This document shows, piece after piece, positions 2,159 to 48,975 of a stretch of 64,000 bases of DNA. Source of the stretch: Streptomyces sp. SID8374. Its GTDB lineage: Bacteria; Actinomycetota; Actinomycetes; Streptomycetales; Streptomycetaceae. The stretch is from the NCBI RefSeq assembly GCF_009865135.1, contig NZ_WWGH01000002.1, forward strand, positions 1,860,001 through 1,924,000, written 5' to 3'. The notes under the pieces are model-generated. The model was not told where the DNA came from. It searched no databases and was given only the letters and a program-made list of their open reading frames with translations. The translations under genes were made by a program, and so were the position numbers. Within the stretch, counting starts at the first letter, position 1. The number at the start of each line of letters is the position of its first letter.

Positions 2159-3364
2159 TCAGCGCAGGAAGTCCGCCAGCCCCGTCAGCAGCCGCTCCAC
2201 ATCGTCCGTGTCGTTGTACGGGGACAGCCCCACGCGCAGGCCGCCCGCGTCGCCGAGGCCCAAGTGGCGGGAGGCTTCCAGGGCGTAGAAGGAACCGGCC
2301 GGGGCGTGGACGCCGGAACGGGCGAGGAAGCGGTACGCGTCGGAGGCGTCCCGGCCCTCGAAGGTGAGCAGCAGCGTGGGCGTCCGCTCGGCCGCCCGGG
2401 AGTGCACCGTCACCCCGCCGAGCTCGCCGAGCGCCTTCTCGGCCACCTCCAGCAGGGCGGTCTCGTGGGCCTCGATCGCCGCGTACGCGGACCGCAGCCG
2501 CTCCCGCCGCCCGCCCGCCGCGTCGCCGGAACCCAGGTCCGCGATGAAGTCGACGGCCGCGCGGGTGGCCGCCAGCGACTCGTAGGGGAGGGTGCCGAGT
2601 TCGAAGCGCTCGGGGACGGCGTCGCTGGACGGCACCAGCTTGTCGGGCCGCAGGGACTCCAGCAGCTCCGGGCGGGCGGCGAGCACACCGTGGTGGGGGC
2701 CGAAGAACTTGTACGGCGAGCAGACGAAGAAGTCGGCGCCGAGACGTTCCACATCCACGAAGTCGTGCGCCGTCAGGTGCACCCCGTCGACGTGGAACAG
2801 GGCACCGGCCCGGTGGACCAGCTCACCGATCGCGGTGACATCGGGGCGGGTGCCGATCAGGTTGGAGGCCCCGGTCACCGCGACCAGCCGGGTCCGCTCG
2901 GTCAGCAGTGAGCCGACGGCCTCCGTGGGCAGCTCACCGGTGGCCGGGTCGAACTCCGCCCACCGCACCACCGCGCCGGCCCGCTCGGCCGCCTGCACCC
3001 ACGGGCGGATGTTGGCGTCGTGGTCCAGCCGGCTGACCACCACCTCGTCGCCCGGCGCCCAACTCCTCGACAGGACGCGGGAGATGTCGTACGTGAGCTG
3101 GGTGGAGCCGCGTCCGTGGACGATCCCGCCCGGGTCCGCCCCCAGCAGATCGGCCAGCGCCTGTCTGAACTCGCCGACGATCGTCTCCGCGTGCACCTCC
3201 CCGGGCAGCGTGGCGCCCCGGATCGACAGCGGCCGGCTCAGCGCCTCGGTGAAGGCCGCGATGACGGGCGCCGGGGTCTGTGTGCCGCCGGGGCCGTCGA
3301 AGTGGGCCGTACCGGCCCGGAGGGCGGGAAACTGCGCGCGCACCGTGCTGATGTCGTAACTCAA
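2159..3364 (-). CDS. Cysteine desulfurase-like protein (class V aminotransferase fold)
   Basis: About 401 residues, fold-type I PLP enzyme of the class V aminotransferase family and the cysteine-desulfurase-like subgroup. Landmarks are a nucleotide-free N-terminus (YDISTVRAQFPAL), the PLP-contact stretch DGVHLTAHDFVDV with its aspartate, and the Schiff-base lysine in SPYKFFGPHHG. The C-terminal small domain ends with LRVGLSPYNDTDDVERLL. The upstream reading frame extends to 3487, but a TTG at 3364 preceded by GAGGGAG gives a family-typical start at YDIST. Whether it moves sulfur or acts on another amino acid is not visible. It is convergent with the B12 regulator (22 bp apart) and divergent from the PTM cluster across about 610 bp. 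Confidence 0.85.
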   Translation of the reverse strand: MSYDISTVRAQFPALRAGTAHFDGPGGTQTPAPVIAAFTEALSRPLSIRGATLPGEVHAETIVGEFRQALADLLGADPGGIVHGRGSTQLTYDISRVLSRSWAPGDEVVVSRLDHDANIRPWVQAAERAGAVVRWAEFDPATGELPTEAVGSLLTERTRLVAVTGASNLIGTRPDVTAIGELVHRAGALFHVDGVHLTAHDFVDVERLGADFFVCSPYKFFGPHHGVLAARPELLESLRPDKLVPSSDAVPERFELGTLPYESLAATRAAVDFIADLGSGDAAGGRRERLRSAYAAIEAHETALLEVAEKALGELGGVTVHSRAAERTPTLLLTFEGRDASDAYRFLARSGVHAPAGSFYALEASRHLGLGDAGGLRVGLSPYNDTDDVERLLTGLADFLR

Positions 3365-3975
3365 GGAGACTCCCTCGCTCGTGGGCGCCCGGCCCGGGTC
3401 ACGGTCATGGCGCCGACAGTCCGTCGCCGCAGCGCCGCCCGAGGGCGGGCGCGCGGTTCGGCGCCGATCATCGCAGGGTGTCCCCACCCGTGAAAGGACG
3501 CCTCACACCGCCCCGTACGCGGGCGCACGGCCCCCGGTCAGGAGTGCGCCGCAGCGTACGCACGCACATCACGGCGCGCATTCATGCGCCCGTCACACGG
3601 CACAGGGATGATCCTATGAGGAAATTCCTCGTACAAATTGACTCACGCAGCCGTCGCGCAGGATTTCCCGCATTCTCCCCGCCCCGGTAAACGTGTTCAC
3701 CGGTGGTGCGCGGCGAACGCCCGTGAAGAGGCCGTCAATTCGGTGGCGAGGTGGTGGTTAAAGCCGTGGGATTCGGAAATGAATGATCTGGGCCGATGGA
3801 GTTGGGGGGCATCGGTTCACGCCACGGTCCGTTTCGCCGGAGCCGGGTGTCCGGAATTGGTCGGTGCATGAGTGATCCGCTCGCACCCCGAGGTGCCCAT
3901 CGACTTCTCGGGCTCCCTTGAGCTGCACCGATGCGATGTTCTCTCCTAGATCACATCTCCTGTGGAGGGTCGCGG
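3365..3975. promoter_or_regulatory. Intergenic region upstream of the PTM cluster
   Basis: About 610 bases between the class V enzyme and ftdA with no convincing coding potential. The middle part is less GC-rich than its surroundings, as is usual for control regions here. It contains a perfect 13-bp palindrome at 3618-3630 and must hold the promoter of the PTM operon. I see no unambiguous -35/-10 pair. The short reading frames here (for example around 3478-3690) lack ribosome binding sites and family resemblance. Confidence 0.55.
3618..3630. promoter_or_regulatory. 13-bp palindrome upstream of ftdA
   Basis: GAGGAA-A-TTCCTC is a perfect 6-bp inverted repeat around one base, in the AT-richest part of the intergenic region and about 350 bp before the ftdA start. 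It could be an operator or a transcript hairpin; nothing ties it to a known regulator. Confidence 0.35.
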
Positions 3976-4932
3976 ATGGACGAGTGCGAACGGTCCGCCG
4001 ATGGCGAGATCGATTCGGTTGGATATTCGGACGGCGGGAAGGGCCCGGTCGGAATCTCCCTGGCTTCCGTCCTCCGTGCGGTCGCCTATCCGCTCCTATT
4101 GCTGGCCGTCGTCCTTGTCGGCGCGTCAGCATTGGCCCTGCGCTGGGATCCGGCCATCGTGAGCCCGCTTTTCCTCGTCGGAACTCTCGTGTATCTGGCC
4201 GTTCTCGAACAACTGATTCCCTATGACCGGAGCTGGCATCCGGGAAAGGACGAGTGGCGCTGGTACGGCATCTACTTCCTGCTCACCATGGCCGGAAGTG
4301 GACTGGCGCAACTTCTGGTCACGGCCGCCGTGGGGTGGATCTCGGCCGACGAGCGGGGCCACCACCTCTGGGCCGAGATCCCGGGCGCCCTGCTGGCCGG
4401 ATCGCTCGTCAGCTACCTGGTGCACCGCCTCGGCCACACCAGCGCCCTCCTGTGGCGGCTGCACGGGGTGCACCACGTCCCGCAGAAGGTCAACGTCGCC
4501 AACAACGGCGTCAACCACGTGCTGGACATCGTGCTCGCCCAGAGCCTCGTCCAGCTGACCCTGGCCCTGGCCGGATTCTCCCGCTCGGCCGTGCTGGTGA
4601 CCGGGCTCTTCGTCGTCGCCCAGGGCTATTTCGTGCACGCCAACATCGACGTCCGCATCGGCCGCTTCAACCATCTGCTGGCCAGCCCCGAACAGCACCG
4701 CCTGCACCACAGCACCGACCTGTCCGAAGCCGGTCACTACGGCTCCGACCTCTCGTGCTGGGACCACCTCTTCGGCAGCTTCACCTGGCACCCCGGCCGC
4801 GAACCCGCCGCCGTCGGCCTCCACGACCCGGCCTCCTTCCCCGGCACCGGAGAGATCGTCGCCGGCTTCCTGCACCCGTGGCGGCGCCGGCCGGAACCGG
4901 AAACCCCGGCCGGACCGGCAGCCAACACCTGA
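3976..4932 (+). CDS. ftdA: Sterol desaturase / fatty acid hydroxylase family protein of the PTM cluster (FtdA-like)
   Basis: About 318 residues, membrane di-iron hydroxylase. Two to three hydrophobic segments (about 28-75 and 100-125) precede the histidine clusters: HRLGH, HGVHH, NHLLASPEQHRLHH and a late histidine in EAGHYGSD. These eight-histidine motifs define the fatty acid hydroxylase superfamily. In PTM clusters (HSAF, frontalamide) this enzyme hydroxylates the ornithine-derived part of the tetramate. The ATG at 3976 follows GGAGGG at 3963-3968; a longer frame from 3931 lacks such a site. It is the first gene of a same-strand operon, 29 bp before the hybrid synthase. Identification rests on family motifs plus exact cluster context. 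Confidence 0.9.
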   Translation: MDECERSADGEIDSVGYSDGGKGPVGISLASVLRAVAYPLLLLAVVLVGASALALRWDPAIVSPLFLVGTLVYLAVLEQLIPYDRSWHPGKDEWRWYGIYFLLTMAGSGLAQLLVTAAVGWISADERGHHLWAEIPGALLAGSLVSYLVHRLGHTSALLWRLHGVHHVPQKVNVANNGVNHVLDIVLAQSLVQLTLALAGFSRSAVLVTGLFVVAQGYFVHANIDVRIGRFNHLLASPEQHRLHHSTDLSEAGHYGSDLSCWDHLFGSFTWHPGREPAAVGLHDPASFPGTGEIVAGFLHPWRRRPEPETPAGPAANT

Positions 4933-4961
4933 TGCTCCACCACGACTTGAGGAGTTCGACC

Positions 4962-7900
4962 ATGGCCGACGCGAACAACCGGGCATTACGCGACAAGGTG
5001 GCGATCGTCGGGATGGGCTGCCGCCTCCCCGGTGGCGCCTCGGACCACCGGACGTTCTGGCGCAACCTGATGGCGGGCAAGGACTGCATCACGCCCACCC
5101 CGCCCGACCGGTACGACGTGACCACACTCGGCAGCCGGTTCCGGGACAAACCAGGGCGCCTCGTCGGCAGCCGCGGCGGATACATCGACGGCTTCGACGA
5201 GTTCGACCCCGCGTTCTTCGGCATCAGCCCCCGAGAGGCCGACCACATGGACCCCCAGCAGCGAAAGCTGCTGGAGGTGGCCTGGGAGACCCTGGAGGAC
5301 GGCGGCCAGCGCCCCGCCGACCTGGCCGGGGAGAACGTCGCCGTGTACGTCGGCGCGTTCACCCTGGACTACAAGATCCTCCAGTTCGCGGACCTGGGCT
5401 TCACCTCGCTGGCCGCCCACACTGCGACCGGCACCATGATGACGATGGTGTCGAACCGGATCTCGTACTGCTTCGACTTCCGCGGCCCCAGCCTCTCCAT
5501 CGACACCGCGTGCAGCTCCTCCCTGGTCGCCGTCCACCTCGCCTGCCAGGCCCTCGGCCGGGGCGAGACCGATCTCGCGCTCGCGGGCGGCACCCTGCTG
5601 AACCTGGCCCCGCAGTACACGATCGCCGAGACGAAGGGCGGCTTCCTGTCGCCCGAGGGCCGCTCCCGTACGTTCGACGCGGGCGCCGACGGCTATGTAC
5701 GGGCCGAGGGCGTCGGCCTGGTCGCGCTGAAGCGCCTGGAGGACGCCGTCCGCGACGGGGACCGCATCCACGCGGTCATCCTCGGCAGCGGGGTCAACCA
5801 GGACGGCCACACCAACGGCATCACCGTGCCCAACCCCGACGCACAGGTCTCCCTCATCCGCCGCGTCTGCGCCGAGGCGGGCATCGCCCCCGGCGAGCTC
5901 CAGTACATGGAGGCGCACGGCACCTCCACCCCCGTCGGCGACCCGATCGAGGCGGGCGCCCTCGCCCGCGCCCTGGCCATCGGACGCAAGCCGGGCACCC
6001 GCGCCTACGTCGGCTCCGTGAAGACCAACATCGGGCACACCGAGTCCGCCGCCGGGATCGCCGGGCTGATCAAGACCGTCCTCTGCCTCAAGCACGGAAC
6101 GATCCCGCCCCACATCAACCTGGAGCGCCTCAACCCCGCCATCGACCAGGCCTCACTGCCGTACGAGATCCCCACCCGGCCGACCCCCTGGCCCGACCAC
6201 GACGGACCCGCCCGGGCAGGCGTCAACTCGTTCGGGTTCGGCGGCACCAACGCCCATGTCGTCCTGGAGGAGGCCCCACCGCTCCCGCAGGACAGCGCCC
6301 CTTCCACCGAACGGGCCTGGAGCATCCTGCCGTTGAGCGCCCGGCACCCGGAAGCGCTCCCGGAGCTGGCCGCCGGCATCCGCGCCGAACTGGCCGGTGA
6401 GAACGGCCCCGCCGTCGCCCTGCCCGACCTCGGCCACACCCTGGCCCACCGCCGCCAGCACCTCCCGCACCGGCTCTCCGTCGTCCACTCCTCCCGCGCC
6501 TCCCTCGACGAGGCGCTCGCCGCCCTCCAGCGCGGCGAGGCCCACCCCCGGGTCGTCCAGGACCGCGCGCGGGACGCCGAAGCGCGGCGCCTGGTCTGGG
6601 TCTTCACCGGCATGGGCCCCCAGTGGTGGGGCATGGGCCGCCAACTCCTCCACGACGAACCGGTGTTCCGCGACGCGGTCACCGCATGCGACCACGCCCT
6701 GCGGGAGTTCGCCGACTGGTCCCTGATCGAGGAGCTGACCGCCGAGGAGTCCGCCTCGCGCATGGCCGAGACCTGGCTCGCGCAGCCCGCCAACTTCGCC
6801 CTCCAGGTCGGTCTCGCCGCCCTGTGGAGGTCGTACGGCGTGCGCCCGGACGCCGTCGTCGGACACAGCACCGGCGAGATCGCCGCCTTCCACGAGGCGG
6901 GCGTCTACTCCCTCCGGGACGCGGCCCGGATCGCGGTGCACCGCAGCCGCCTCCAGCAGACCCTCGCCGGGACGGGCACCATGCTCGCGGTGAGCCTGAC
7001 GGAGGAGGAGGCCGAGCGCCGGGTGCGGCCCTACCGGGACCGGGTCTCGGTCGCCGCCGTCAACAGCCCCACCTCCATCACGCTGGCCGGGGAGGCGGAC
7101 GCCCTGGCGCTGCTGGCCGAGGAGTTGCGGGCCGAGCAGCTGTTCGCCAAGTTCCTCACCGTACAAGTTCCCTACCACAGCGTCGGAATGGAGCGGATCA
7201 AGGACGAACTGCTCACGGCACTGGCCCCCTTGGAGCCGCGCCCGGCTCACCTCCCGCTCTACCTCACGGGCAGCGAAGGGGTGGCCGAGGGAAGCGAGTT
7301 GGACGCCGACTACTGGTGGCGGAACGTCCGCGACCGGGTGAGGTTCCGGTCCGCCGTGGACCGCCTCGCGGGCGACGGGCACCAGGTGTTCCTGGAGATC
7401 GGCCCGCACCCGGTCCTCGGCCATGCCATCCGCGAGTGCCTGGAGGCCACCGGGGCGGCCGGGCTGACCCTGCCCTCGATCCGCCGCCAGGAGGACGAGA
7501 GCGAGCGGTTCGCGCTCTCCCTCGCCTCCCTGCACAACCTGGGCGCCGACATCGACTGGGACGTCCTCCAACCCTCCGGCCGGCCCGTCACCCTGCCCCC
7601 TCACCCCTTCCGGCGCGACCGGCACTGGACCGAGCCCCCGGCCGTCGCGAAGGTCCGCCTGGGCCGGATCGACCACCCCCTCCTCGGCCGCCGCACCGAC
7701 CGCACCGAACCGGCCTGGCAGGCCCGCCTGGACACCGAGTCCCTGCCCTACCTGGCCGACCACCGCATCCAGGACACCGTGGTGTTCCCCGCCGCCGGAT
7801 ACATCGAGATGGCGACCCAGGCCGTCCTGCGGCTCACCGGTGGCACGGCAGCCGTCCTCGCCGACATCGACCTGCGCAAGGCGCTCTTCCTGCCCGACGG

Positions 7901-10900
7901 CGAGGACCGGACCGTGGAGGTGTCGCTCTCCCTGGAGGACGCGGCCTTCACGATCGCCTCGCCCGCGACCGGGGACGACGGGGAGCGGACCGTCCACGCG
8001 AGCGGCATCGTCCGCACCGGGCAGCGCCGCAGGACCGGCGCCCCTCTGGACGCCGCCGCGATCCGGGCCCGTACCGTACGCCGACTCGCCGGCCCCGACT
8101 GCTACACCGCGCTGGCCGGGCTCGGCTACCACTACGGCCCCGCCTTCCGGGCCATCGAGGAGGTGTGGATCGGCGCCGGGGAAGTCCTCGCCAGGATCCG
8201 CCCGCCCGAGGGGGTCGACGCCTCCGGCCACCACCTCCACCCGGTCCTCCTCGACGCCTGCTTCCAGGCGCTGCTGACCCCGCAACTCCTCCAGGACCCG
8301 GCACCGGGGGCAGGCATCAGGCTGCCGCTCTCGCTGGCCGAGGTCGCCCTCGGCCCCATCGGCGACCAGCCGCTCTGGGTGCACGCCACCCTGCGCCCCG
8401 CCGACGCGGACACCACGCTCGGGGACATCACCCTGTACGCCGACGACGGCACCCCGTTCGGCCGGATCGAGGGGTTCCGCGCCGCCGACGTGGAGAAGGC
8501 GGCGACCGCCGTCGCCCGGACCACCATCGACTCCTGGCTCGCGGAGACGGTCTGGACGGAGGTCCCGGAGCTGGGGGAGGAAGACCCGCTCGCGCCCGCA
8601 GGGATAGCGGCCCGGGACCACGGCTGGCTGGTCCTCGCCGACACCCAGGGCGTCGCCGACGCCTTCTCCACCCTCGCCGCCGCCCGGGGCGAGCGCTGCC
8701 ACCTGGTGCGCCGGGGCGAGGCGTACGCCGGAGCGGGCCCGGACGGCTCGTTCACCGTGAACCCCGGGTCCACCGCCGACCTGGAGCGCCTCTTCGCCGA
8801 CCTGGACCGGGACGGCGAGCCGTTCCGCGGGGCCGTCCTGCACCTGTGGAACCTGGACCGGCCCTCCCTCGCCGCCTGCGACCGGCAGGCCGTCCGCGAC
8901 CACGCGGGCCCGGGCTCGTACTCCCTGATCGCCCTGGCCCGGACCCTGCTCGCCCGGGGCCTCGGCGGCAGGCTGCACATCGTCACCCGGGGCGCCCAGC
9001 CCGTCCTGCCCGACGAACCCGTCGAACCCCTCGGGGCCCCCGCATGGGGCGTCGGCCGCGTCCTGCGCCACCAGGAATTGACCGACCACCGGGGCAAGTT
9101 GATCGACCTCGACCCCGAGCGGCGGCCCGGTCCGGAAGGTGCCCTCGCCGAAGCGGAGGCGCTCCTGCGCGAGGTGCTGACCGACGACGAGGAGGAGATC
9201 GCCCTACGTGAGGGCGTACGCCGCACCAGCCGCCTCCGCCAGGCCGAAGGCCTGACCCGGCCGCTGCCGCTGCGGCTGCGGGCCGACGGGAGCTATCTGG
9301 TGACCGGGGCCTTCGGCGCGCTCGGCCGGCTGCTCTGCCGCACCCTCGTCCAACGCGGGGCGCGCAGGCTCATCCTGGTGGGGCGTACGCCGGTGCCCGC
9401 CCGCGAGAAGTGGGGCTCCACCGACCCCGCCACCGCCGAGGGCCGGGCGGTGGAACTGCTCCGTGAGCTGGAGACGCTCGGCGCCCAGGCCGTCCTGGCC
9501 CCCCTCGACATCACCGACGAGGACGCCCTGACCACCTGGCTGGACGCCTACCGGCGCGCCGGCTCCCCTCCCGTACGCGGGGTTTTCCATCTCGCCGGAC
9601 AGGTCCGCGACACCCTGGTCACCGACCTGGACCGGCCCGCCTTCGACGCCGTCCACGACCCCAAGACCGTCGGCGCCCACCTCCTCCACCGCCACCTGCG
9701 GGACGAACCCCTCGACCACTTCGTCCTCTTCGCCTCCATCGCCTCCCTGCTCACCACCGCCGGCCAGACCAACTACGCGGCGGGCAACGCCTTCCTGGAC
9801 GCGCTGGCCCACCACCGCCGGGCCCAGGGCCTGCCCGCGCTCAGCCTGGACTGGGGCCCCTGGGCCACCGGCATGATCGAGGAACTCGGCCTGGTCGACC
9901 ACTACCTGCACAGCCGGGGCATGAGCTCCCTGGCCCCCGACGCGGGCATGGCCGTCCTGGAACGCGTCATCGGCCAGGACCACGCCCAACTCGTCGTCGC
10001 CACCGTCGTCAACTGGCCCACCTTCCTGGCCTGGTACCCCTCCCCGCCCCCGCTCGTCACCGCCCTCGCAGCAGCGGCCGCCCCACCCCCGGCCGCCGAG
10101 CGGGCCGGCGGCTTCCTCGACACCTTCCGTACCGCCGACGAAGCAACCCGCCGCTCCCTGGTGGCCGAGCGCTTCGCCACCCTCTCCGGCGCCGTCCTGC
10201 GCACCGGCACCGACCGCATCGACCCCGCCGAAGGCCTCGGCCAACTGGGACTCGACTCCCTGCTCGCCATGGAGCTGCGCGCCCGCATCCACGCCGAGCT
10301 CGGCGTCGCCCTGCCCGTGGTCGCCCTGCTCAGCGGGACCCCGGCCGGAGAGCTGGCCGCACAGCTCCACGACGGCCTGGCGGAACTCGCCGCGGCCGAC
10401 GGCTCCCACACCACCGGCCGGGCCGTCGAACTCCACGACGACCCCGCGTGCTACCCGCTGACCCAGAACCAGAAGGCCCTCTGGTTCCTCAAGCACCTCA
10501 ACCCCGACGGGTACGCCTACAACATCGGCGGAGCCGTCGAGGTGCATGTCGCCCTCGAACCGGACCTGATGTTCGAGGCCGTCCGCCGCCTCATCGCCCG
10601 CCACCCCGCTCTGCGCACCAACTTCCTGCTGGAGGACGGGCAGGCCGTGCAGCGGGTCTCCGAGGACACCGAACCGGACCTCGCTCTCTTCGACGTCCAG
10701 GGCGAGGAGTGGGAGACCATCCACGCCACCATCGTCGCCGAGTACCGCAAGCCCTACGACCTGGCCCACGACCCCCTGGTCCGCTTCCGCCTCTTCAAGC
10801 GCGGGCACGACCGCTGGGTCATCATGAAGGCCGTCCACCACATCGTCTCGGACGCCATCTCCACGTTCACCTTCATCGAGGAACTCTTCCAGGTCTACGA

Positions 10901-13900
10901 GGACCTGCGGCAGGGCCGGGAACCCCAACTGCCGCCCGTGGAAGCCCGCTACCTCGACTTCCTCAACCAGCAGAACACCTTCCTCGCCGGACGCGAGGCC
11001 GCCGGGATGCTGGACTACTGGCGCTCGCACCTCCCCGCCGAGGTCCCCCTCCTGGACCTCCCCACCGACAAGCCGCGCCCGGCCGTCCAGACGCACAACG
11101 GAGCCTCCGAGTTCTTCGTGCTGGACGCCGAACTCAGCGCCCGCGTGCACGCCTTGGCCCGCGCCCAGAACGTCACGCCGTTCATGGTGCTGCTGAGCGC
11201 GTACTACCTGCTGCTCCACCGCTACTCGGGTCAGGACCACATCGTCGTCGGCTCCCCGGTGACCGGCCGCACCCGGCAGGACTTCGCCTCCGTCTACGGC
11301 TACTTCGTCAACCCGCTCCCGCTCCACGCCGACCTCACCGGCGAGCCCACGGTCGCCGAACTCCTGGAGCAGGTCCGCCGGACGGTGCTCGGCGGCCTGG
11401 ACAACCAGGAGTACCCGTTCGTCCTGCTCGTCGACGAGCTGGGCCTCCAGCACGACCCCAGCCGCTCGGCCGTCTTCCAGGCGATGTTCATCCTCCTCAC
11501 CCACAAGGTCGCCACCGAGCAGTACGGCTACCGGCTGGAGTACATCGAACTACCGGAGGAGGAAGGCCAGTTCGACATCACCCTCTCGGCCTACGAGGAC
11601 GAGGCGGAGAACCGCTTCCACTGCGTCTTCAAGTACAACACCGACCTCTTCCTCCCCCAGACCATGCGCCGCATGGCCGCCCACTACACCCGCCTCCTCG
11701 ACCACATGACCCGGGCGCCCGGCGAACACCCCGCCTCACGGCTGGAGATGCTGGACGCGGAGGAACGCGAACAGCTGGTGGGGGAGTGGAGCCGCCCCGC
11801 CCTGCCTGCCGCCGCCGCGGATTCGCCGTTCACCCCGGTCCACGGGCTGATCGGCGCGGTCGCCACCGCCCACCCCTCGTCGGTCGCCGTCACCATGCCG
11901 CTCCCGGGCGGCGGCGCCCGCCGGCTGACCTACGGGGAGCTGGAGCGGCGGGCCGCCGACGTGGCCGCCCGGCTGCGCACCCTGGGCGTCACGGCCGGGT
12001 CGGTGGTCGTCGTCTGCCTGGACAAGTCGCCGGAGCTGATCGTCACCCTGCTCGCCGTGCTGAAGGCGGGCGGCGCCTATCTGCCGCTGCGGCCCGACCA
12101 GCCCGCCGACCGCATCGCCCACCTCGTCCGGGCCACCGGAGCGGGCCTCGTCATCGTCTCCGGCGAGCCCGCCCGCGAGGGAACCGCCGCGCTGCCCGTC
12201 ATCACCCTGACCCTCGACGCCCTGCACGCGACCGAGCCGCACCCGGAGGGCCCCGGGCAGAACACGGCACCGGACTCGACCGCGTACGTCATCACCACCT
12301 CCGGCTCCACCGGCCGCCCCAAGGCCGTCCGGGTCAGCCACCGCAACCTCGCTTCCGCGTACGGGGCCTGGCTTCAGGAGTACCGGCTGGAGACCGACGT
12401 CCGGGTGCACCTCCAGATGGCCGAGCCGTCGTTCGACGTGTTCACCGGCGACCTGGTCCGCACGCTCTGCTCGGGCGGCAACCTCGTCCTGGCCGACCGG
12501 GACCTCCTCTTCGACACCGCACGCCTGTACCGGACGATGCGTCAGGAGCGGGTCGACTGCGCGGAGTTCGTTCCGGCGGTGGTGCGTGGGCTGATGGACC
12601 ACTGCGTACGGGAGCGGCTGCGGCTGGACTTCCTGCGGCTGCTGGTGGTCGGCTCGGACGCCTGGAAGGTGGGGGAGTACCAGAGGCTGAGCGAGCTGTG
12701 CGGTCCGGCGACGCGGCTCGTCAACTCCTACGGCCTCACCGAGGCGACCATCGACAGCGCCTACTTCGAGGGGCCCGTCGACGACCTGGAACCAGGCCTG
12801 ATGGTCCCGATCGGCCGCCCCCTGCCCAACAGCACCCTCCACGTCCTGGACGCCCACGGCGAACCCGTCCCGCCCGGCGTCCCCGGCGAGCTGTGGATCG
12901 GCGGCGACGGGGTCGCGCTCGGCTATGCCGGAGACCCCGAGCAGACGGCGGACCGCTTCGTCACCCGTACGCTCAGCAAGGCGCGGGCCGCCCGGCCCGA
13001 ACGGCTCTACCGGACCGGCGACATCGCCCGCTGGGACGCCCACGGCCGCGTCCATCTGCTGGGCCGCACCGACGGCCAGGTCAAACTGCGCGGCCACCGC
13101 ATCGAGATCGGCGAGATCGAGGCCCACCTCGCCCAGTGGCCCCCGCTCGCCCGGGCCGTCGTCACCGTCGCCACCGACACCGGGGGAGAGGCCGCGCTCT
13201 GCGCCTACTGCGTACCGGCGACCCCGGGCACCGCACTCGACCGGCGGGCCCTGCGCCGCCACCTGGCCGGCTCGCTGCCCTCGTACATGATCCCGTCGTA
13301 CTTCGTCGAACTGCCCGCCCTGCCGCTCACCGCCAACGGCAAGATCGACACCGCCGCGCTGCCCGCACCCCGGGCCGAGACCGGGGAGCGCCCCCACGAG
13401 GAGCCGGTGACGCTCTACGAGACCAGCGTGGCCCGGCACTGGAAGGCGCTGCTGCGGCTCGAACAGGTGGGTCTGGAGGACGACTTCTTCGAGGTCGGCG
13501 GCTCCTCCATCAAGCTCATCGAACTCCTCCACCTGCTGCGCACCGAGTTCGGCGTCAGCGTCCCCGTCAGCCGCCTCTACCAGGTCACCACCCTCCACGG
13601 CATGGCCGCCACCGTGGAGGAGGTCCTGCACAGCACCAGCACCGACGAACTGCCGTATCTGACCTTCAACTCCGGCCAGTCGCCGCACCTCTTCTGCTTC
13701 CCGCCCGCCGGCGGCCACGGACTCGTCTACCGGGGCCTCGCCGCGCAGCTCCCGGAGTACGCCGTCATCGGCTTCAACTACCTCCCCGGCGACGACAAGG
13801 TGGCCCGCTACGCCGACCTCGTCGAAGCCGCCCGGCCCGAGGGCGCCATCCTGCTCCTCGGCTACTCCCTCGGCGGCAACCTCGCCTTCGAGACAGCGAA

Positions 13901-14336
13901 GGAGCTGGAGCGGCGCGGACGGCGGGTGGGCCATGTCGTCATCCTCGACTCCCGGCGCATCATGGAGCGTTACGAGCCCGGGGACGAGGGCATCCGCGCC
14001 TTCGAGGCCGAACTCGCCGACCACCTGCGCAAACACACCGGGTCGGAAGCCGTCACCCGCGAGACCCTCGCGCATGCCGCGGAGTACCTCACCTTCTGCG
14101 GCCGTACGCCCAACACCGGGACGGTGGACGCCCCGGTCAGCGTGATCACCGACGAGGAGAAGACCGCCCTGTACGCGGCCGGTGAGCACGGCACCTGGCA
14201 CGGCAGCTCCACCGCCACCACCGTGGTGCTGCGCGGCTCCGGCGTCCACGCCGACATGCTGGACCCCAAGCACCTCGCCCGCAACGCCGCCCTGGTCCGC
14301 ACCGTACTGACGGGAGACGCGGCCCATGGCGGATGA
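4962..14336 (+). CDS. ftdB: Iterative hybrid PKS-NRPS, PTM synthase (FtdB-like)
   Basis: A 3,124-residue single-module hybrid synthase. Domains in order: KS about 9-433 (C184, H319, H359), AT about 545-850 (GHSTGE, S636), DH about 904-1187 (H934, D1098, Q1102), KR about 1190-1700 (TGAFGALG, Y1605), ACP about 1727-1807 (S1766), C about 1827-2266 (HH at 1959-1960, HHIVSDA), A about 2290-2803, PCP about 2813-2890 (S2849), TE about 2897-3122 (GYSLGG, S2969). There is no ER or MT. In the PTM family one such protein makes two polyene chains iteratively and joins both to ornithine as a tetramate. The specificity residues I read (D-V-G-E-L-V-S-I-D-K) fit a diamino acid. The start ATG 4962 has a GAGGAG site. 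Codon 9 is TTA, so translation probably depends on the bldA tRNA. Confidence 0.96.
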   Translation: MADANNRALRDKVAIVGMGCRLPGGASDHRTFWRNLMAGKDCITPTPPDRYDVTTLGSRFRDKPGRLVGSRGGYIDGFDEFDPAFFGISPREADHMDPQQRKLLEVAWETLEDGGQRPADLAGENVAVYVGAFTLDYKILQFADLGFTSLAAHTATGTMMTMVSNRISYCFDFRGPSLSIDTACSSSLVAVHLACQALGRGETDLALAGGTLLNLAPQYTIAETKGGFLSPEGRSRTFDAGADGYVRAEGVGLVALKRLEDAVRDGDRIHAVILGSGVNQDGHTNGITVPNPDAQVSLIRRVCAEAGIAPGELQYMEAHGTSTPVGDPIEAGALARALAIGRKPGTRAYVGSVKTNIGHTESAAGIAGLIKTVLCLKHGTIPPHINLERLNPAIDQASLPYEIPTRPTPWPDHDGPARAGVNSFGFGGTNAHVVLEEAPPLPQDSAPSTERAWSILPLSARHPEALPELAAGIRAELAGENGPAVALPDLGHTLAHRRQHLPHRLSVVHSSRASLDEALAALQRGEAHPRVVQDRARDAEARRLVWVFTGMGPQWWGMGRQLLHDEPVFRDAVTACDHALREFADWSLIEELTAEESASRMAETWLAQPANFALQVGLAALWRSYGVRPDAVVGHSTGEIAAFHEAGVYSLRDAARIAVHRSRLQQTLAGTGTMLAVSLTEEEAERRVRPYRDRVSVAAVNSPTSITLAGEADALALLAEELRAEQLFAKFLTVQVPYHSVGMERIKDELLTALAPLEPRPAHLPLYLTGSEGVAEGSELDADYWWRNVRDRVRFRSAVDRLAGDGHQVFLEIGPHPVLGHAIRECLEATGAAGLTLPSIRRQEDESERFALSLASLHNLGADIDWDVLQPSGRPVTLPPHPFRRDRHWTEPPAVAKVRLGRIDHPLLGRRTDRTEPAWQARLDTESLPYLADHRIQDTVVFPAAGYIEMATQAVLRLTGGTAAVLADIDLRKALFLPDGEDRTVEVSLSLEDAAFTIASPATGDDGERTVHASGIVRTGQRRRTGAPLDAAAIRARTVRRLAGPDCYTALAGLGYHYGPAFRAIEEVWIGAGEVLARIRPPEGVDASGHHLHPVLLDACFQALLTPQLLQDPAPGAGIRLPLSLAEVALGPIGDQPLWVHATLRPADADTTLGDITLYADDGTPFGRIEGFRAADVEKAATAVARTTIDSWLAETVWTEVPELGEEDPLAPAGIAARDHGWLVLADTQGVADAFSTLAAARGERCHLVRRGEAYAGAGPDGSFTVNPGSTADLERLFADLDRDGEPFRGAVLHLWNLDRPSLAACDRQAVRDHAGPGSYSLIALARTLLARGLGGRLHIVTRGAQPVLPDEPVEPLGAPAWGVGRVLRHQELTDHRGKLIDLDPERRPGPEGALAEAEALLREVLTDDEEEIALREGVRRTSRLRQAEGLTRPLPLRLRADGSYLVTGAFGALGRLLCRTLVQRGARRLILVGRTPVPAREKWGSTDPATAEGRAVELLRELETLGAQAVLAPLDITDEDALTTWLDAYRRAGSPPVRGVFHLAGQVRDTLVTDLDRPAFDAVHDPKTVGAHLLHRHLRDEPLDHFVLFASIASLLTTAGQTNYAAGNAFLDALAHHRRAQGLPALSLDWGPWATGMIEELGLVDHYLHSRGMSSLAPDAGMAVLERVIGQDHAQLVVATVVNWPTFLAWYPSPPPLVTALAAAAAPPPAAERAGGFLDTFRTADEATRRSLVAERFATLSGAVLRTGTDRIDPAEGLGQLGLDSLLAMELRARIHAELGVALPVVALLSGTPAGELAAQLHDGLAELAAADGSHTTGRAVELHDDPACYPLTQNQKALWFLKHLNPDGYAYNIGGAVEVHVALEPDLMFEAVRRLIARHPALRTNFLLEDGQAVQRVSEDTEPDLALFDVQGEEWETIHATIVAEYRKPYDLAHDPLVRFRLFKRGHDRWVIMKAVHHIVSDAISTFTFIEELFQVYEDLRQGREPQLPPVEARYLDFLNQQNTFLAGREAAGMLDYWRSHLPAEVPLLDLPTDKPRPAVQTHNGASEFFVLDAELSARVHALARAQNVTPFMVLLSAYYLLLHRYSGQDHIVVGSPVTGRTRQDFASVYGYFVNPLPLHADLTGEPTVAELLEQVRRTVLGGLDNQEYPFVLLVDELGLQHDPSRSAVFQAMFILLTHKVATEQYGYRLEYIELPEEEGQFDITLSAYEDEAENRFHCVFKYNTDLFLPQTMRRMAAHYTRLLDHMTRAPGEHPASRLEMLDAEEREQLVGEWSRPALPAAAADSPFTPVHGLIGAVATAHPSSVAVTMPLPGGGARRLTYGELERRAADVAARLRTLGVTAGSVVVVCLDKSPELIVTLLAVLKAGGAYLPLRPDQPADRIAHLVRATGAGLVIVSGEPAREGTAALPVITLTLDALHATEPHPEGPGQNTAPDSTAYVITTSGSTGRPKAVRVSHRNLASAYGAWLQEYRLETDVRVHLQMAEPSFDVFTGDLVRTLCSGGNLVLADRDLLFDTARLYRTMRQERVDCAEFVPAVVRGLMDHCVRERLRLDFLRLLVVGSDAWKVGEYQRLSELCGPATRLVNSYGLTEATIDSAYFEGPVDDLEPGLMVPIGRPLPNSTLHVLDAHGEPVPPGVPGELWIGGDGVALGYAGDPEQTADRFVTRTLSKARAARPERLYRTGDIARWDAHGRVHLLGRTDGQVKLRGHRIEIGEIEAHLAQWPPLARAVVTVATDTGGEAALCAYCVPATPGTALDRRALRRHLAGSLPSYMIPSYFVELPALPLTANGKIDTAALPAPRAETGERPHEEPVTLYETSVARHWKALLRLEQVGLEDDFFEVGGSSIKLIELLHLLRTEFGVSVPVSRLYQVTTLHGMAATVEEVLHSTSTDELPYLTFNSGQSPHLFCFPPAGGHGLVYRGLAAQLPEYAVIGFNYLPGDDKVARYADLVEAARPEGAILLLGYSLGGNLAFETAKELERRGRRVGHVVILDSRRIMERYEPGDEGIRAFEAELADHLRKHTGSEAVTRETLAHAAEYLTFCGRTPNTGTVDAPVSVITDEEKTALYAAGEHGTWHGSSTATTVVLRGSGVHADMLDPKHLARNAALVRTVLTGDAAHGG

Positions 14337-16026
14337 CCCGAGCACCGTCGAAACCGCGCCCGACGACTGGAGCAGCCGCGAGCGCATCCCCGGCACCCCG
14401 CCCCGCGTCATCGTCATCGGCGCGGGCGTGGCCGGCCTCTCCACCGGCTGCTACGCCCAGATGAGCGGCGCAAGGACCCGGATCTTCGAGAAGCACGTAC
14501 TGCCCGGGGGCTGCTGCACCGCCTGGTCGCGGGACGGCTACCTCTTCGACTACTGCATCGAGTGGCTGATCGGCACCGCGCCCGGCAACGACGCCCACCA
14601 GGTGTGGCGGGAGCTGGGCGCCCTCGACGGCAAGACCGTCACCAACTTCGAGCTGTTCAACAAGGCCGAGGACGAGAGCGGCCGTTCGGTCACCTTCTAC
14701 AACGACCCGGACCGGCTGGAAGCGCATCTGCTGGCGATCTCACCGGCCGACGCACCCCTGATCCGGGCCTTCACCCGTGACCTGAGGCGGTTCATCGCCA
14801 TCGAGTTGTACCCGTTCCTGACGGCACCCGCCCTGCGGACCGTACGGGAGCGGGCGGCGACCCTGCGCACGGTGCTGCCGGCCTTCCGCCTCTTCTGGCG
14901 GACGGCCGCCACCCCGATGCACGTCTTCGCCGACAAGTTCCAGGACCCGCTGCTGCGCCGGGCCTTCCGCAACATCTTCTTCCAGGACCCGGAGGGCTTC
15001 CCGCTCCTGCCGTACCTGTTCAACATGGCGGCGGCTTACCACCTCAACGCCGGTTTCCCGCAAGGCGGTTCGCTCGGCCTCTCGCGCTCCATCGAAGAGC
15101 GCTACCTGAGCCTGGGCGGACACGTCACCTACCGGGCCCGCACGGAGAAGATCCTGGTCGAGAACGACCGGGCGATCGGCGTCGAACTCCGCAACGGGCA
15201 GAGGTACTTCGCCGAGCACGTCGTCTCCGCCGCCGACGGGCACACCACCGTCCACGGGCTGCTCGGCGGGCGGTACACCGGACCCAGGATCGACAAGCTC
15301 TACACCGACCTCCTCCAGCGCCCCGGCACCCTCTTCCCCGCGGTCGTCTCCGCCTTCGTCGGCCTGCGCGGCGACTTCGACCCCGGCGAGGCCCACAGCA
15401 CCACCCACCTCCTGGCCGACGAGGAAGGCAAGCGGCTCCCCGGCGCCCTCCAGAACAGCCTGGTCGTCCAGGCGCGCTCCCGCTACTCCGACGGCTTCGC
15501 GCCCCCCGGCCACTCCGTCCTGCACTGCACCTACTTCAGCGACTACACCTACTGGAAGGAGCTGCGCACCCGGAACCGCAAGGAGTACCGCCAACGCAAG
15601 CACGAGGTCGCCGACTTCGTCCGCACCTTCCTGGAGCGCCGCCACCCCGGCATCAACGACCGCATCGACCTCGTCGACGTGGCCTCACCCGCCACCACCC
15701 ACCGCTACACCGGCAACCACAACGGCTCCATCCTCGCCTGGAAGGCCTTCTCCGACGCCGACGACGTCTCCGCCCGCCTGGTCGGGAAGGACCGGATGCG
15801 GCTCCCCGGCCTCACCGGCTTCTCCATGGCCGGGCAGTGGGTCGGCATGGGCGGCCTGATCCGCGCCGCCTCCACCGGCCGCTTCGCCGTCCAGTACCTC
15901 TGCCGCGAACTCGGCCTGGAATTCCGGGCGTGGGAGAGCGAGGCCACCGAGCCCTGGCACACCGGAAAGCTGGGAAAGCTGCCCCAGCTGGACCGGTGGT
16001 CAGCACGGGAGGACACCAGTTCATGA
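14326..16026 (+). CDS. ftdC: FAD-dependent oxidoreductase, phytoene dehydrogenase-like PTM cyclase (FtdC-like)
   Basis: 566 residues. The N-terminal dinucleotide fold shows VIVIGAGVAGLSTGCYAQMSG followed by LPGGCCTAW, and a C-terminal FAD-contact segment lies near GLTGFSMAGQWVGMGGLIRA. The family is carotenoid/phytoene desaturase-like. In PTM pathways such enzymes reductively cyclise the polyene chains into carbocycles. The start at 14326 overlaps the end of the synthase gene by 11 bp and has a GGGAG site about 9 bp upstream, so translation is coupled. It is a clear paralogue of the next gene. Which ring each closes cannot be read from sequence alone. Confidence 0.93.
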   Translation: MADDPSTVETAPDDWSSRERIPGTPPRVIVIGAGVAGLSTGCYAQMSGARTRIFEKHVLPGGCCTAWSRDGYLFDYCIEWLIGTAPGNDAHQVWRELGALDGKTVTNFELFNKAEDESGRSVTFYNDPDRLEAHLLAISPADAPLIRAFTRDLRRFIAIELYPFLTAPALRTVRERAATLRTVLPAFRLFWRTAATPMHVFADKFQDPLLRRAFRNIFFQDPEGFPLLPYLFNMAAAYHLNAGFPQGGSLGLSRSIEERYLSLGGHVTYRARTEKILVENDRAIGVELRNGQRYFAEHVVSAADGHTTVHGLLGGRYTGPRIDKLYTDLLQRPGTLFPAVVSAFVGLRGDFDPGEAHSTTHLLADEEGKRLPGALQNSLVVQARSRYSDGFAPPGHSVLHCTYFSDYTYWKELRTRNRKEYRQRKHEVADFVRTFLERRHPGINDRIDLVDVASPATTHRYTGNHNGSILAWKAFSDADDVSARLVGKDRMRLPGLTGFSMAGQWVGMGGLIRAASTGRFAVQYLCRELGLEFRAWESEATEPWHTGKLGKLPQLDRWSAREDTSS

Positions 16027-17747
16027 CCACGTCCACGACCGGCAGGACCCGGCGGCCCCGCGAGTCGATGATCATCATCGGGGGCGGCCTCGGCGGCCTC
16101 TCCACCGGCTGCTACGCCCGGATGAACGGCTACCGCACCCACATCCTGGAGATGCACGAACTGCCCGGCGGCTGCTGCACCGCCTGGGAGCGCGGCGGCT
16201 TCACCCTGGACGCCTGCGTCAGCTGGCTCCTCGGCAGCGGCCCGGGCAACGAGATGCACCAGATCTGGCTGGAGCTGGGCGCGTTGCAGGGCAAGGAGAT
16301 CCGCCACTTCGACGTGTTCAACATCGTGCGCGGACAGGACGGGCGGGCCGTCCACTTCTACTCCGACCCGGACCGGCTGGAGGCCCACCTCATCGGGATC
16401 TCGCCCGCCGACGCCCGTACCGTACGCAAGTTCTGCGCCCAACTCCGCAGCTTCCGCAAGGCCCTTGCGGTCTACCCGTTCCTCAAACCCGTCGGGCTGA
16501 TGGGACGTGTGGAGCGGTGGCGGATGCTCGCCTCGTTCGTGCCGTACTTCAACGCCGTCCGCACCACGATCACCGTCCTGATGGCTGACTACTCGGCGAA
16601 GTTCAAGGACCCGCTCCTGCGGGAGGCGTTCAACTTCATCCTGTACGAGAAGCACCCGAACTTCCCCGTCCTACCCTTCCACTTCCAACTCGCCTCCCAC
16701 GCTAACCTTTCGGCGGGCGTACCCGAAGGCGGATCCCTCGGCCTCGCCCGGTCGATCGAGGCCCGCTACCGGCGGCTCGGCGGGGAGATCTCGTACAACA
16801 CGAAGGTCGAGACGGTGATCGTCGAGGACGACCGCGCGGTGGGCGTCCGGCTCAGCGACGGCAGCGAACTGCGGGCGGACATCGTGGTGTCGGCCTGTGA
16901 CGGCTACACGACGACCATGAAGTTCCTGGAGGGGAAGTACCTGGGCGAGGAGTACCGCAAGCTCTACACGCGGACCATCCATGAACCCGGCATGGTCTTC
17001 CCCGGCTACTTCACCCTCTTCCTCGGCCTCTCCCGCCCCTTCCCGGAAGGGGACCCCTGCACGACCTACCTCCTCGACGAAGCGACAGCCGCGAAGCTCA
17101 CCGGCATCCGCCACGCCAGCATCAACGTCCAGTTCCGCAACCGGCATTACCCCGAGCTCTCCCCGGACGGCACCACCGTCGTCTACGCCACCTACTTCTG
17201 CGACATCGCCCCCTGGCGGGCCCTGGACGAAGGCCCCGAGCAGGTCACCCGCACCCGCGGCGGCCAGGAGCTGCACACCCTGCCCGTCCGCCACGGCCGC
17301 GGCTACTACGCGGCGAAACGACGGGCACGCGAGACGCTCGTGGACTTCCTGGAGCAGCGCTTCCCGGGCATCCGGGACGCCATCGTCGTACGCGATGTCT
17401 CCAGCCCGCTCACCCAGGTCCGCTACACCGGCAACTACGACGGCACGGTGCTGGGCTGGCAGCCGTTCGTGGAGAGCGGCGAAACCCTGGAAGAGCTGGT
17501 CAAGAAGCACGGCCCGGGGCTGCCGGGGCTGGCGGACTTCTACCAGTCCGGCGTCTGGGCCACCACCGGCGGGCTGATCCGGGCGGCCGCCGCCGGACGC
17601 CACGTCATGCAGTTCATCTGCCGCGACGACGGCAAACCCTTCACCGCGTCGGTCGACCTCACCGCGCCCCCGCCCACCCACCGCGTCATCCCCGTACCGG
17701 CCGGCCGAGGGGCCACCGCCGTACCCACGACAGGGAAGAGCACATGA
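16023..17747 (+). CDS. ftdD: Second FAD-dependent oxidoreductase, PTM cyclase (FtdD-like)
   Basis: 574 residues starting at the ATG in an ATGA overlap with the preceding stop. The FAD fold is IIIGGGLGGLSTGCYARMNG, followed by LPGGCCTAWERGG. The C-terminal flavin segment reads GVWATTGGLIRAAAAGRHV. It is the same length class and has the same motif order as the upstream FAD enzyme, so a duplication within PTM clusters is likely. Together they would close two of the carbocyclic rings. The TA-rich overlap and absence of spacing indicate a single polycistronic message with ftdB and ftdC. Confidence 0.93.
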   Translation: MTTSTTGRTRRPRESMIIIGGGLGGLSTGCYARMNGYRTHILEMHELPGGCCTAWERGGFTLDACVSWLLGSGPGNEMHQIWLELGALQGKEIRHFDVFNIVRGQDGRAVHFYSDPDRLEAHLIGISPADARTVRKFCAQLRSFRKALAVYPFLKPVGLMGRVERWRMLASFVPYFNAVRTTITVLMADYSAKFKDPLLREAFNFILYEKHPNFPVLPFHFQLASHANLSAGVPEGGSLGLARSIEARYRRLGGEISYNTKVETVIVEDDRAVGVRLSDGSELRADIVVSACDGYTTTMKFLEGKYLGEEYRKLYTRTIHEPGMVFPGYFTLFLGLSRPFPEGDPCTTYLLDEATAAKLTGIRHASINVQFRNRHYPELSPDGTTVVYATYFCDIAPWRALDEGPEQVTRTRGGQELHTLPVRHGRGYYAAKRRARETLVDFLEQRFPGIRDAIVVRDVSSPLTQVRYTGNYDGTVLGWQPFVESGETLEELVKKHGPGLPGLADFYQSGVWATTGGLIRAAAAGRHVMQFICRDDGKPFTASVDLTAPPPTHRVIPVPAGRGATAVPTTGKST

Positions 17748-18799
17748 AGATCGAGAAATGGGTGGTCCGCGAGCACGTCGAGGGCGTGCCCGACGTGGAC
17801 CGCGTCTACGAGAAGGTCGTCGAGAACGTCGACGTGTCCCTGGCCCCCGACGAGATGCTGCTGCGGACGCTGTACGTCTCCGTCGACCCCTACCTCCAGG
17901 GCATCGCCCTGGACACCCCGATCGGGTCCCACATGGGCGCCGACTCGATCATGGAGGTGGTCGAGGCCGGGCCGCGCGCCGCCCATGCCGTCGGCGACCT
18001 GGTCCAGGGCTTCGGCGGCTGGCGCTCCCACGTCGTCTCCACCGGGGAGGCCGAGCTCTGGCAGACCGGCACGTTCCCCATGGTCTTCCCGGCCTACCGC
18101 AGGCTGGACCCCCGGTGGTACGACGATGCCTTGCCGCTCCCGACCGCGCTGAGCGTGATGGGCGGCCCGGGCATGACGGCCTGGGGGACTCTCGCCAAGT
18201 ACATGACGGTGACGCCCGGGGACACCTTCGTCATCAGCGGGGCCTCCGGCGCGGTCGGCGCCCTCGTCGGCCAGCTCGCCGCGCTCGCGGGCGCCCGCGT
18301 CATCGGGACCACCTCGTCCCCGGAGAAGGCGGAGTACCTCCTCGGCCTCGGCTTCGACACGGTCGTCGTCTACCGGCACACCGACAGCGCCGGCACCGTC
18401 CGCGAGGCGCTGGCCCGGGCCGCCCCCGACGGGGTCGACCGCTACTTCGACAACCTCGGCGGCACGGTCACCGACGTGGTGTTCTCCATGCTCAACGTCG
18501 GCAGCCAGGTGGCCGTGTGCTGGCAGTGGGCGACCCAGGTCGGCAACGAGGACACCGGCCCGCGCCTGCTGCCCTATCTGATGTTCCCGCGCGCCACGGT
18601 CCGGGGGATCTTCTCCCTGGAGTGGTTCACCGAGCAGAACTGGAAGGACCTCCACGCGGAGCTGGGCGGCCGGGTCCGGCGCGGAGAGGTCGTCTGCGAC
18701 CACACCCTCCACCACGGCTTCGACGCCATCCCCACCGCGTACGGAAGCCTCTACCGCGACCGGGCGGAGCACCGGGGCAAGGTGCTGGTCGCGCTGTGA
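17744..18799 (+). CDS. ftdE: MDR-family NADP-dependent alcohol dehydrogenase/enoyl reductase, PTM ring-forming (FtdE-like)
   Basis: 351 residues, zinc-independent medium-chain dehydrogenase of the leukotriene B4 dehydrogenase/curcumin reductase type. Visible signatures are the N-terminal substrate fold with VSVDPYLQG, the cofactor motif GASGAVGALVGQLAAL at about 165-180, and the FDNLGG segment. No structural or catalytic zinc cysteines are present. In ikarugamycin and HSAF pathways the equivalent enzyme (IkaC, OX4) closes the last ring by hydride addition. The ATG overlaps the upstream stop (ATGA). With two FAD cyclases upstream, its presence points to a three-ring PTM. Confidence 0.92.
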   Translation: MKIEKWVVREHVEGVPDVDRVYEKVVENVDVSLAPDEMLLRTLYVSVDPYLQGIALDTPIGSHMGADSIMEVVEAGPRAAHAVGDLVQGFGGWRSHVVSTGEAELWQTGTFPMVFPAYRRLDPRWYDDALPLPTALSVMGGPGMTAWGTLAKYMTVTPGDTFVISGASGAVGALVGQLAALAGARVIGTTSSPEKAEYLLGLGFDTVVVYRHTDSAGTVREALARAAPDGVDRYFDNLGGTVTDVVFSMLNVGSQVAVCWQWATQVGNEDTGPRLLPYLMFPRATVRGIFSLEWFTEQNWKDLHAELGGRVRRGEVVCDHTLHHGFDAIPTAYGSLYRDRAEHRGKVLVAL

Positions 18800-18842
18800 G
18801 GACCGCCGGCACTCGACGCCTCCTCCGCCGAAGGAGTTCACG

Positions 18843-20027
18843 ATGACCACCACCGACCCGTCCTCCCTGGTCCCCCTGCACCGCCTGCGGTTCGAGGAAC
18901 CCGGCCCGCCCCGCCTCGGCGAACTGCCGGGCGGCGCGCCCGCCTGGCTGGTCAGCCGGTACGCCGACGTCCGCCAGGTGCTCTCCGACCCGCGCTTCGG
19001 CCGGGCCCAGCTGTACGCCGACGACGCCCCGCCCCTCTCCGACGTACCGGACCTCGTGAACAACCCCGACCTGATGTTCAACCAGGACGGCCCCGACCAC
19101 CTGCGGCTGCGCCGGACGCTGCGCCGCGCCTTCACCCCGAGAGCGGTCGCCCGCTGGCAGCCGTGGATCACCGCCATCGTGGAGGAGCTACTGGACCGGC
19201 TGGAGGCAGAGCGCGGACCGGTCGACGTGGTCGAGGAGTTCACGCTGCCCCTCCCCGTGGCGGTGATCAGCCGGCTGATGGGCCTGGACGCGTCCGCCCA
19301 CGGCCGGATGCGGCACTGGAGCGAGCACGCCTTCTCCGACGGCTCGCACTCCGGGGAGGAGGTGGAGTCCGTGCTGAAGGAGTTCAGCGCGTTCGGCGCC
19401 GAACTCCTCGCCGAGCGGCGGCGCGACCCCGGCGACGACCTGATCAGCAGTCTGGTGCGGGCCGCCGACGAGGAGGGCGGCCTCCCCGAGGCGCAGTTGG
19501 TGAGCCTGGTGTGCGGGCTCGTCGTCGGCGGCCACGACAGCACCATGACCATGCTGGGCAACGCGCTGCTCTACCTCCTCGGCGAACGCCCGGAGAGCTG
19601 GCCCCGGATCGGCGCGGACGAGGAGGCGGCCGGAAGGGTGGCGGACCGGCTCATCCACCTCGTCCCGCTGGGCGACGACCGGGGAACGGCACGCCACGCG
19701 GCCGAGGACGTCGAGGTCGGCGGGGTGGTGATCCCGGCCGGCGCGGTCGTCCTGGCGGACTGCGGCGCCGCCAACCGGGATCCGGAGGTCTTCCCCCGCC
19801 ACACCCGCAACGACCTGTTCGCCCCGCTGGAGGCCCCCACGCTCTCCTTCGGTGCCGGGGCCCACTACTGCCTGGGCGCCTGGCTGGCCCGTACCGAGCT
19901 CCAGACCGCCCTGCACCGGCTGGCCGCCCGCCTCCCGGAGCTGCGCCTGGCGGAGCCCACGGAGGCGGTCGTCTGGCGGACCGGAACGACCTCACGCAGC
20001 CCGCGCAGGCTCCTGGTGAGCTGGTGA
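18843..20027 (+). CDS. ftdF: Cytochrome P450 of the PTM cluster (FtdF-like), atypical K-helix
   Basis: 394 residues, soluble bacterial class I P450. The heme loop FGAGAHYCLG supplies the thiolate Cys343, followed by the usual AWLARTEL helix. The I helix reads GGHDST (229-234), with Ser where the usual acid-Thr pair has Thr. The K helix, normally ExxR, reads RLIH (269-272) before LVPLGDD, so both invariant ExxR residues are replaced. The downstream EDVEVGGVVIPAG block is normal and the frame is intact. P450s of PTM clusters add late oxidations to the macrolactam. It is 43 bp after ftdE with AAGGAG before the ATG, probably the last gene of the operon. Activity is uncertain because of the motif loss. 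Confidence 0.9.
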   Translation: MTTTDPSSLVPLHRLRFEEPGPPRLGELPGGAPAWLVSRYADVRQVLSDPRFGRAQLYADDAPPLSDVPDLVNNPDLMFNQDGPDHLRLRRTLRRAFTPRAVARWQPWITAIVEELLDRLEAERGPVDVVEEFTLPLPVAVISRLMGLDASAHGRMRHWSEHAFSDGSHSGEEVESVLKEFSAFGAELLAERRRDPGDDLISSLVRAADEEGGLPEAQLVSLVCGLVVGGHDSTMTMLGNALLYLLGERPESWPRIGADEEAAGRVADRLIHLVPLGDDRGTARHAAEDVEVGGVVIPAGAVVLADCGAANRDPEVFPRHTRNDLFAPLEAPTLSFGAGAHYCLGAWLARTELQTALHRLAARLPELRLAEPTEAVVWRTGTTSRSPRRLLVSW

Positions 20028-45988: not shown

Positions 45989-46193
45989 GGTCTGCTCCTC
46001 GGGGTGGTGCTGCCCTGTGTTCCTGTGACAGTAGGACCGGAAGCCGTGAGGCCGGATGAGTACGCCTACTCAAAGTCGGTGTGCGGCACCTTCGCGGACG
46101 GTCCGTACGCCCTCCGCACCTCCCCTCCGCACCGCCTCCGTCATTGGCATGGACCTGACTATCGAACTCCGCTACAGTCCGGGACGACGCATC

Positions 46194-46207
46194 TGAGAGC
46201 GCTCTCA
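46194..46207. promoter_or_regulatory. LacI-type operator palindrome upstream of the protease gene
   Basis: TGAGAGCGCTCTCA, a perfect 14-bp palindrome with the CG centre typical of LacI-family sites. It lies 79 bp before the TTG start and about 15 bp after a possible TGGACC-17-TACAGT promoter (46150-46178), a position that would block transcription. It shares its core with four other sites in the window. Confidence 0.8.
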
Positions 46208-46285
46208 AAGACTCGATCCGGATGTGCTCCCGGATGCCTCCCGTTCCACCCCCACGTCGCTGGAACAACAGGAAGGGTCACTCCC

Positions 46286-47431: not shown

Positions 47432-47435
47432 TCCG

Positions 47436-48936: not shown

Positions 48937-48975
48937 CGGGGTCGGCCGTCCGGGTCGACCGCCTGACCGACCTCT

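Follow-up and report, generated by a model that had tools for sequence, protein, structure and literature searches.

A six-gene operon of the polycyclic tetramate macrolactam type in Streptomyces sp. SID8374, with a predicted 5/5/6 product

The window considered here, a 64,000-nucleotide stretch covering 1860001-1924000 of contig C2 in the Streptomyces sp. SID8374 genome (7.78 Mb in 4 contigs), carries between positions 3976 and 20027 six intact, co-directional open reading frames on the forward strand, which we call A to F. We have hardly any doubt that, with chemistry transferred from homologues, they make up a complete Group I Streptomyces operon for a polycyclic tetramate macrolactam (PTM), maintained by purifying selection. 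The Group I assignment follows from the two flavoenzymes (C and D) and the alcohol dehydrogenase-like enzyme (E), all of them intact and adjacent; in the excerpted text of PMC6950151, Group I comprises the 5/5/6 clusters with two flavoenzymes and Group II those with three. PTMs are described in a further excerpted source as antibiotic, antifungal and cytotoxic compounds (PMC11724479). The cluster is an ordinary member of this known family and changes no concept; its interest lies in details such as P450 specificity and promoter variants and not in the system as such.

The preliminary description of this DNA had claimed a complete PTM cluster consisting of a hydroxylase, a synthase, two FAD enzymes, an MDR dehydrogenase and a P450, and both this gene order and the kinds of protein encoded are borne out by the reading frames and their Pfam domains. 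Gene A (3976-4932, +) encodes a member of the sterol-desaturase/fatty-acid-hydroxylase family, of the C-25 hydroxylase type represented by FtdA, SGR815 and SD (FA_hydroxylase, PF04116, E 1.8e-24). Gene B (4962-14336, +) encodes an iterative hybrid PKS-NRPS of the FtdB/SGR814 type, identified by its motifs, its KS phylogeny and the Pfam domains KS, AT, DH, KR, ACP, C, A, PCP and TE in a single protein of 3124 aa (the Pfam query began at 4932 instead of 4962). The products of C (14326-16026, +; FtdC/PtmB1/SGR813 type) and D (16023-17747, +; FtdD/PtmB2/SGR812 type) are FAD phytoene-dehydrogenase-like oxidoreductases, recognised by their NAD_binding_8/amino-oxidase flavoprotein domains, their relatives and a tree of the two proteins. 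Gene E (17744-18799, +) encodes an MDR/ene-reductase-like enzyme of the FtdE/PtmC/SGR811/OX4 type (PF16884/PF00107, ADH_N_2/ADH_zinc_N), and gene F (18843-20027, +) a cytochrome P450 of the FtdF/PtmE'/SGR810 type (p450, PF00067). The genes had also been said to be mostly overlapping, which is true of three of the five junctions (11 bp for B/C, 4 bp each for C/D and D/E) but not of A-B and E-F, where there are gaps of 29 and 43 bp. The start of A is preceded by GGAGGG and its column in an alignment with 17 relatives (L114-L130) reads ATG, except for GTG in L116 and L122; the best start for B is the ATG at 4962, downstream of TTGAGGAG, and gives the 3124-aa protein. None of the six genes has signs of being a pseudogene. 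Among the NCBIfam families listed, no model names the A-F proteins as PTM enzymes and, for the 25 of 130 families listed for B, the only one above its cut-off is a general amino-acid adenylation domain.

The synthase has the catalytic equipment of its family: DTACSSS, EAHG and NIGH in the KS, GHSTG in the AT, DxxxQ in the DH, the nucleotide motif TGAFGALG in the KR, LGLDS in the ACP, HHIVSD in the C domain, GGSS in the PCP and GYSLG in the TE. These motifs agree with those of 20 aligned homologues, except for the blank columns of the SPB074 row, which is empty in the KS, AT and DH because its best segment begins later; the KR tyrosine is seen in the translation of B and lies outside the alignment columns. 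The first DH motif is HRIQD, i.e. HxxxD, where the usual consensus is HxxxG. Eighteen of the 20 rows that have sequence here, that of S. griseus included, share this aspartate, and the other two (L121 and L133) have glycine. Mapping the adenylation domain by hand, at positions that we take to be those of the specificity pocket, gives DVGELVSI in 19 of 21 rows, among them the window and Lysobacter, and DVGELVSV in two.

The genome has 20 KS matches, that of the window and 19 others, and five weak ones (L149-L153) were left out of the phylogeny. In the resulting tree, the window KS and 20 PTM KSs stand opposite the remaining 14, with a branch support of 93/90 (slightly below the program's starred mark) and recovery in 96% of 200 bootstrap trees; the window KS has S. 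microflavus and CB00316 as its closest neighbours. One row of the outgroup (L148) sits on a very long branch, and the program flags a long-branch join among the non-PTM rows. A synthase phylogeny had been proposed as one way to challenge the original reading, and it puts the window KS with the PTM KSs. Elsewhere in the genome, contig C1 carries a large modular PKS locus (3317633-3385535) with 12 KS matches over ~68 kb.

The conservation of gene order was assessed starting from D, which as a query on a genome collection recovered 131 relatives, the best 80 of which were kept. Thirty genomes from these best 80 were searched for A and 29 had a match, the sole miss being Actinoalloteichus caeruleus (L049). 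Twenty of the 29 loci were fetched (~20 kb each, with ~2.5 kb upstream), and genes A-F are found in identical order in 19 of them, so that a chance arrangement is not an issue. Gene A is matched in all 20 (53-94% identity) and E in 19 (73-96%). Over the six genes the identities are 92-96% for S. microflavus and 91-97% for CB00316, then 80-91% for S. griseus NCTC13033, 69-82% for S. albidoflavus and 60-79% for SPB074. The rival reading, a PKS-NRPS cluster of some other kind that carries carotenoid-type desaturases, has to be considered against this background. NCBIfam does label C and D with terms like carotenoid isomerase or phytoene desaturase family, but with scores under the curated cut-offs (e.g. 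116 vs 587 and 105 vs 238 bits), and the KS tree and the six-gene synteny are both of the PTM kind; together these two rule out such a cluster, to which we give practically no credence. The PTM reading stands on intact genes, Pfam domains, synteny and the KS phylogeny alike.

A match to E is present in 69 of the best 80 of the 131 D loci, and the 11 loci without one include some that end early. In the D tree the window falls in a clade of 43 rows (SH-aLRT 100). Of the clade's other 42 loci, 40 have, downstream of D, a P450 with 57-92% identity to F; the remaining two (L037 and L066) end before this point. Among the 38 loci outside the clade, six give a P450 match (E<=1e-15), with 33-39% identity to F. 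These six (L048, L050, L063, L064, L068 and L071) are PTM-type loci, five of which encode the P450 on the opposite strand, and their divergent P450s are perhaps other tailoring enzymes. In an even draw across the genus, 50 of 392 Streptomyces genomes, that of the window included, have a D relative (E<=1e-50). Since PTM clusters are this widespread, the present one, intact and closely related to that of S. griseus, serves mainly as a further strain in which promoters and P450 tailoring can be compared.

Purifying selection is apparent in the NG86 dN/dS ratios. These come to 0.08-0.24 for CB00316 and 0.10-0.21 for S. microflavus; comparison with S. griseus and SirexAA-E gives 0.15-0.26, and S. 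albidoflavus, which is more distant, gives higher values (0.26-0.43). The dS values of 0.14-0.24 against CB00316 and S. microflavus indicate that these two and the window do not represent the same strain.

With respect to the named PTM systems, the closest counterparts are the PTM loci of CB00316 (L115) and S. microflavus JCM 4496 (L114), whose six proteins are 91-97% identical to those of the window. S. griseus SGR810-815, compared through NCTC13033 (L126), whereas the SGR numbers and products were reported for NBRC 13350, has the same six genes in the same order and on the same strand, with the same checked catalytic motifs; A is less conserved (80%) and D more so (91%). The frontalamide cluster was compared through SPB074 (L132) as a stand-in for SPB78. 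All six genes have counterparts there in the same order at 60-79% identity, the P450 being the lowest at 60%, and the ftdA-F order originally proposed for the window agrees both with the 19 of 20 loci and with the published ftdA-F and SGR815-810 orders, as excerpted (PMC5705629, PMC8399814). The likeness to the HSAF cluster, for which Lysobacter antibioticus HS124 (L133/L044) served in place of L. enzymogenes C3, is partial: A-D are matched at 53, 66, 67 and 78%, but the fetched HS124 DNA has no match to the P450 and, with the 10 kb that follow D included, none to E. An E match at 71% does occur in Lysobacter sp. Root690 (L046). In the excerpted descriptions, Group II clusters (HSAF, Lysobacter) have three flavoenzymes (PMC6950151) and the HSAF cluster is listed with no P450 (PMC5705629, PMC8399814), whereas the window has two flavoenzymes and a P450. 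The ikarugamycin type (ikaABC), compared by its description in part of PMC11724479, has the same kinds of synthase and flavoenzyme, but just one of the latter in place of two, and 5/6/5 rings.

If the chemistry is carried over from these homologues, the single iterative PKS module of B would produce two polyene chains and its NRPS module would link these to L-ornithine through its two amino groups, releasing a tetramate polyene. D would form the first five-membered ring, and C the second, with oxygenation at C-14; E would close the inner six-membered ring through a Michael-type addition, A would hydroxylate C-25, and F would contribute a late oxidation, at a position that is unproven. Excerpted accounts assign the first five-membered ring to PtmB2 and the second to PtmB1, the inner six-membered ring to PtmC, SGR811 and OX4, and C-25 hydroxylation to SD, FtdA and SGR815 (PMC6950151, PMC8399814). 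The protein A has the histidine motifs HRLGH, HGVHH and HRLHH; at E<=0.001 the PDB holds nothing related to it. For C there are four distant PDB relatives, the best of them a phytoene dehydrogenase (52 bits). Searched against its own genome at E<=1e-20, C recovers itself and D and nothing else, and a second PTM-type flavoenzyme set elsewhere was consequently rejected. C and D separate into a pair of paralogous clades, in each of which the window is closest to CB00316, in a quick tree whose C rows come from the window and just 7 hand-picked loci of the 80.

A 5/5/6 product is our best prediction, and the expected compounds would be 5/5/6 PTMs of the HSAF/pactamide/SGR type, with some alteramide-like 5/5 side products. 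The earlier deduction of a 5-5-6 carbocycle from two FAD cyclases and the ADH accords with the Group I rule; the skeleton is nevertheless put forward as a prediction, because Group I strains yield 5/5/6 and/or 5/5 PTMs, such as the alteramides of S. albus J1074, according to the same excerpts (PMC6950151). The main product could accordingly be a 5/5 bicyclic, alteramide-like compound, should E work poorly or should F or A divert the bicyclic intermediate, and it fits with this that SGR815 is described, in the text available from PMC8399814, as acting on C-25 of a 5/5 ring system. The state of E makes such an outcome unlikely, however: the gene is intact, its product is 96% identical to those of the two nearest relatives with a dN/dS of 0.13 against each of S. 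microflavus and CB00316, and the protein aligns end to end with the solved homologues 9jp8 (559 bits) and 9ji7 (554 bits), well ahead of the next PDB match (145 bits). The name of both entries is just 'NADP-dependent oxidoreductase'.

Within the 5/5/6 prediction, the P450 is the part that touches a question of wider interest, the role of the FtdF-type enzymes. The excerpted literature predicts that PtmE'/FtdF act at C-12 or C-14, a role still unverified in 2021 (PMC8399814, PMC6950151), and a limited literature search found nothing that settles it. F has the heme motif FGAGAHYCLG. The solved PTM P450 CftA is no particularly close match to it, ranking seventh among its PDB matches with 231 bits (top match 260 bits). 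Against CB00316, S. microflavus and SPB074 it is the protein of lowest identity in the cluster, or ties with A. It is conceivable, though we consider it quite doubtful, that the site of oxidation may have shifted in this lineage, giving an undescribed oxidation pattern on the usual 5/5/6 core.

Upstream of A, an alignment with 18 relatives reveals a conserved block at 3756-3794 (+), which is present in L114-L130 but not clearly in L131; the DNA preceding it is variable among L114-L130. The 39-base pattern of this block, with up to 3 mismatches, has a single occurrence in the 7.78 Mb genome, and it is probably promoter DNA. On the opposite strand at 3815-3824, 161 bases before the start of A, is an AdpA-like site (TGGCGTGAAC) that fully matches what we take to be the AdpA consensus. 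Twelve of the 18 aligned relatives share a full match at that place, and L116, L121, L122, L127, L128 and L131 lack one there; in L116 and L122 there are an apparent 2-base gap and substitutions at the site. Over the whole window, full matches to the consensus number 12, for 7.3 expected, a count reached in 9 of 100 shuffles and so not significant. Four of these 12 matches lie inside A (at 4002, 4147, 4394 and 4568, spanning 4002-4577). L114 has all four, L115 three and five loci one each; since 13 of the 20 loci have none, these poorly kept sites were rejected as functional elements.

The promoter site suggests that the cluster may be under the control of AdpA, which reportedly activates the PTM promoters of the S. 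griseus clade. In this clade, promoter indels are said to weaken the PTM promoters and to separate weak from strong producers. As the window keeps the putative AdpA site, our guess from the promoter sequence is that the strain would be a producer and not a silent one. The contrary, an intact cluster that stays silent under ordinary culture, is a possibility of some weight although the less likely one. In its favour are those same promoter indels and the statement, in the excerpted PMC11724479, that under standard conditions many of these clusters stay silent and that many have received no study. Weakly against it speaks the presence of both the conserved block and the AdpA-like site in the window; six of the 18 relatives lack a full match there, L116 and L122 among them with their apparent 2-base gap. 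Strains of the S. griseus clade with PTM clusters have been reported (PMC7729405, in part).

The operon is flanked upstream by a class-V aminotransferase gene (2159-3487, -), divergent from it, and, two genes upstream of A, by a gene for a MerR-family regulator with B12-binding domains (892-2136, +), which is presumably CarH/LitR-like. In the ~2.5 kb upstream DNA of the 20 fetched loci, the former has matches in 12 and the latter in 11. Neither has a counterpart among the described PTM genes, and both were rejected as cluster members. The aminotransferase is common to the window, CB00316 and S. microflavus, and the MerR/B12 gene is present in CB00316; of these two relatives, only CB00316 was seen to have the downstream DAGK gene. 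Further along the window there are genes for xanthine/CO-dehydrogenase-type FAD and molybdenum subunits and an XdhC-like protein (25544-30226, +) and three adjacent genes (46004-50840, +) with, respectively, a match to an alpha-lytic protease prodomain, a DUF1996 domain and an F5/8 type C domain.
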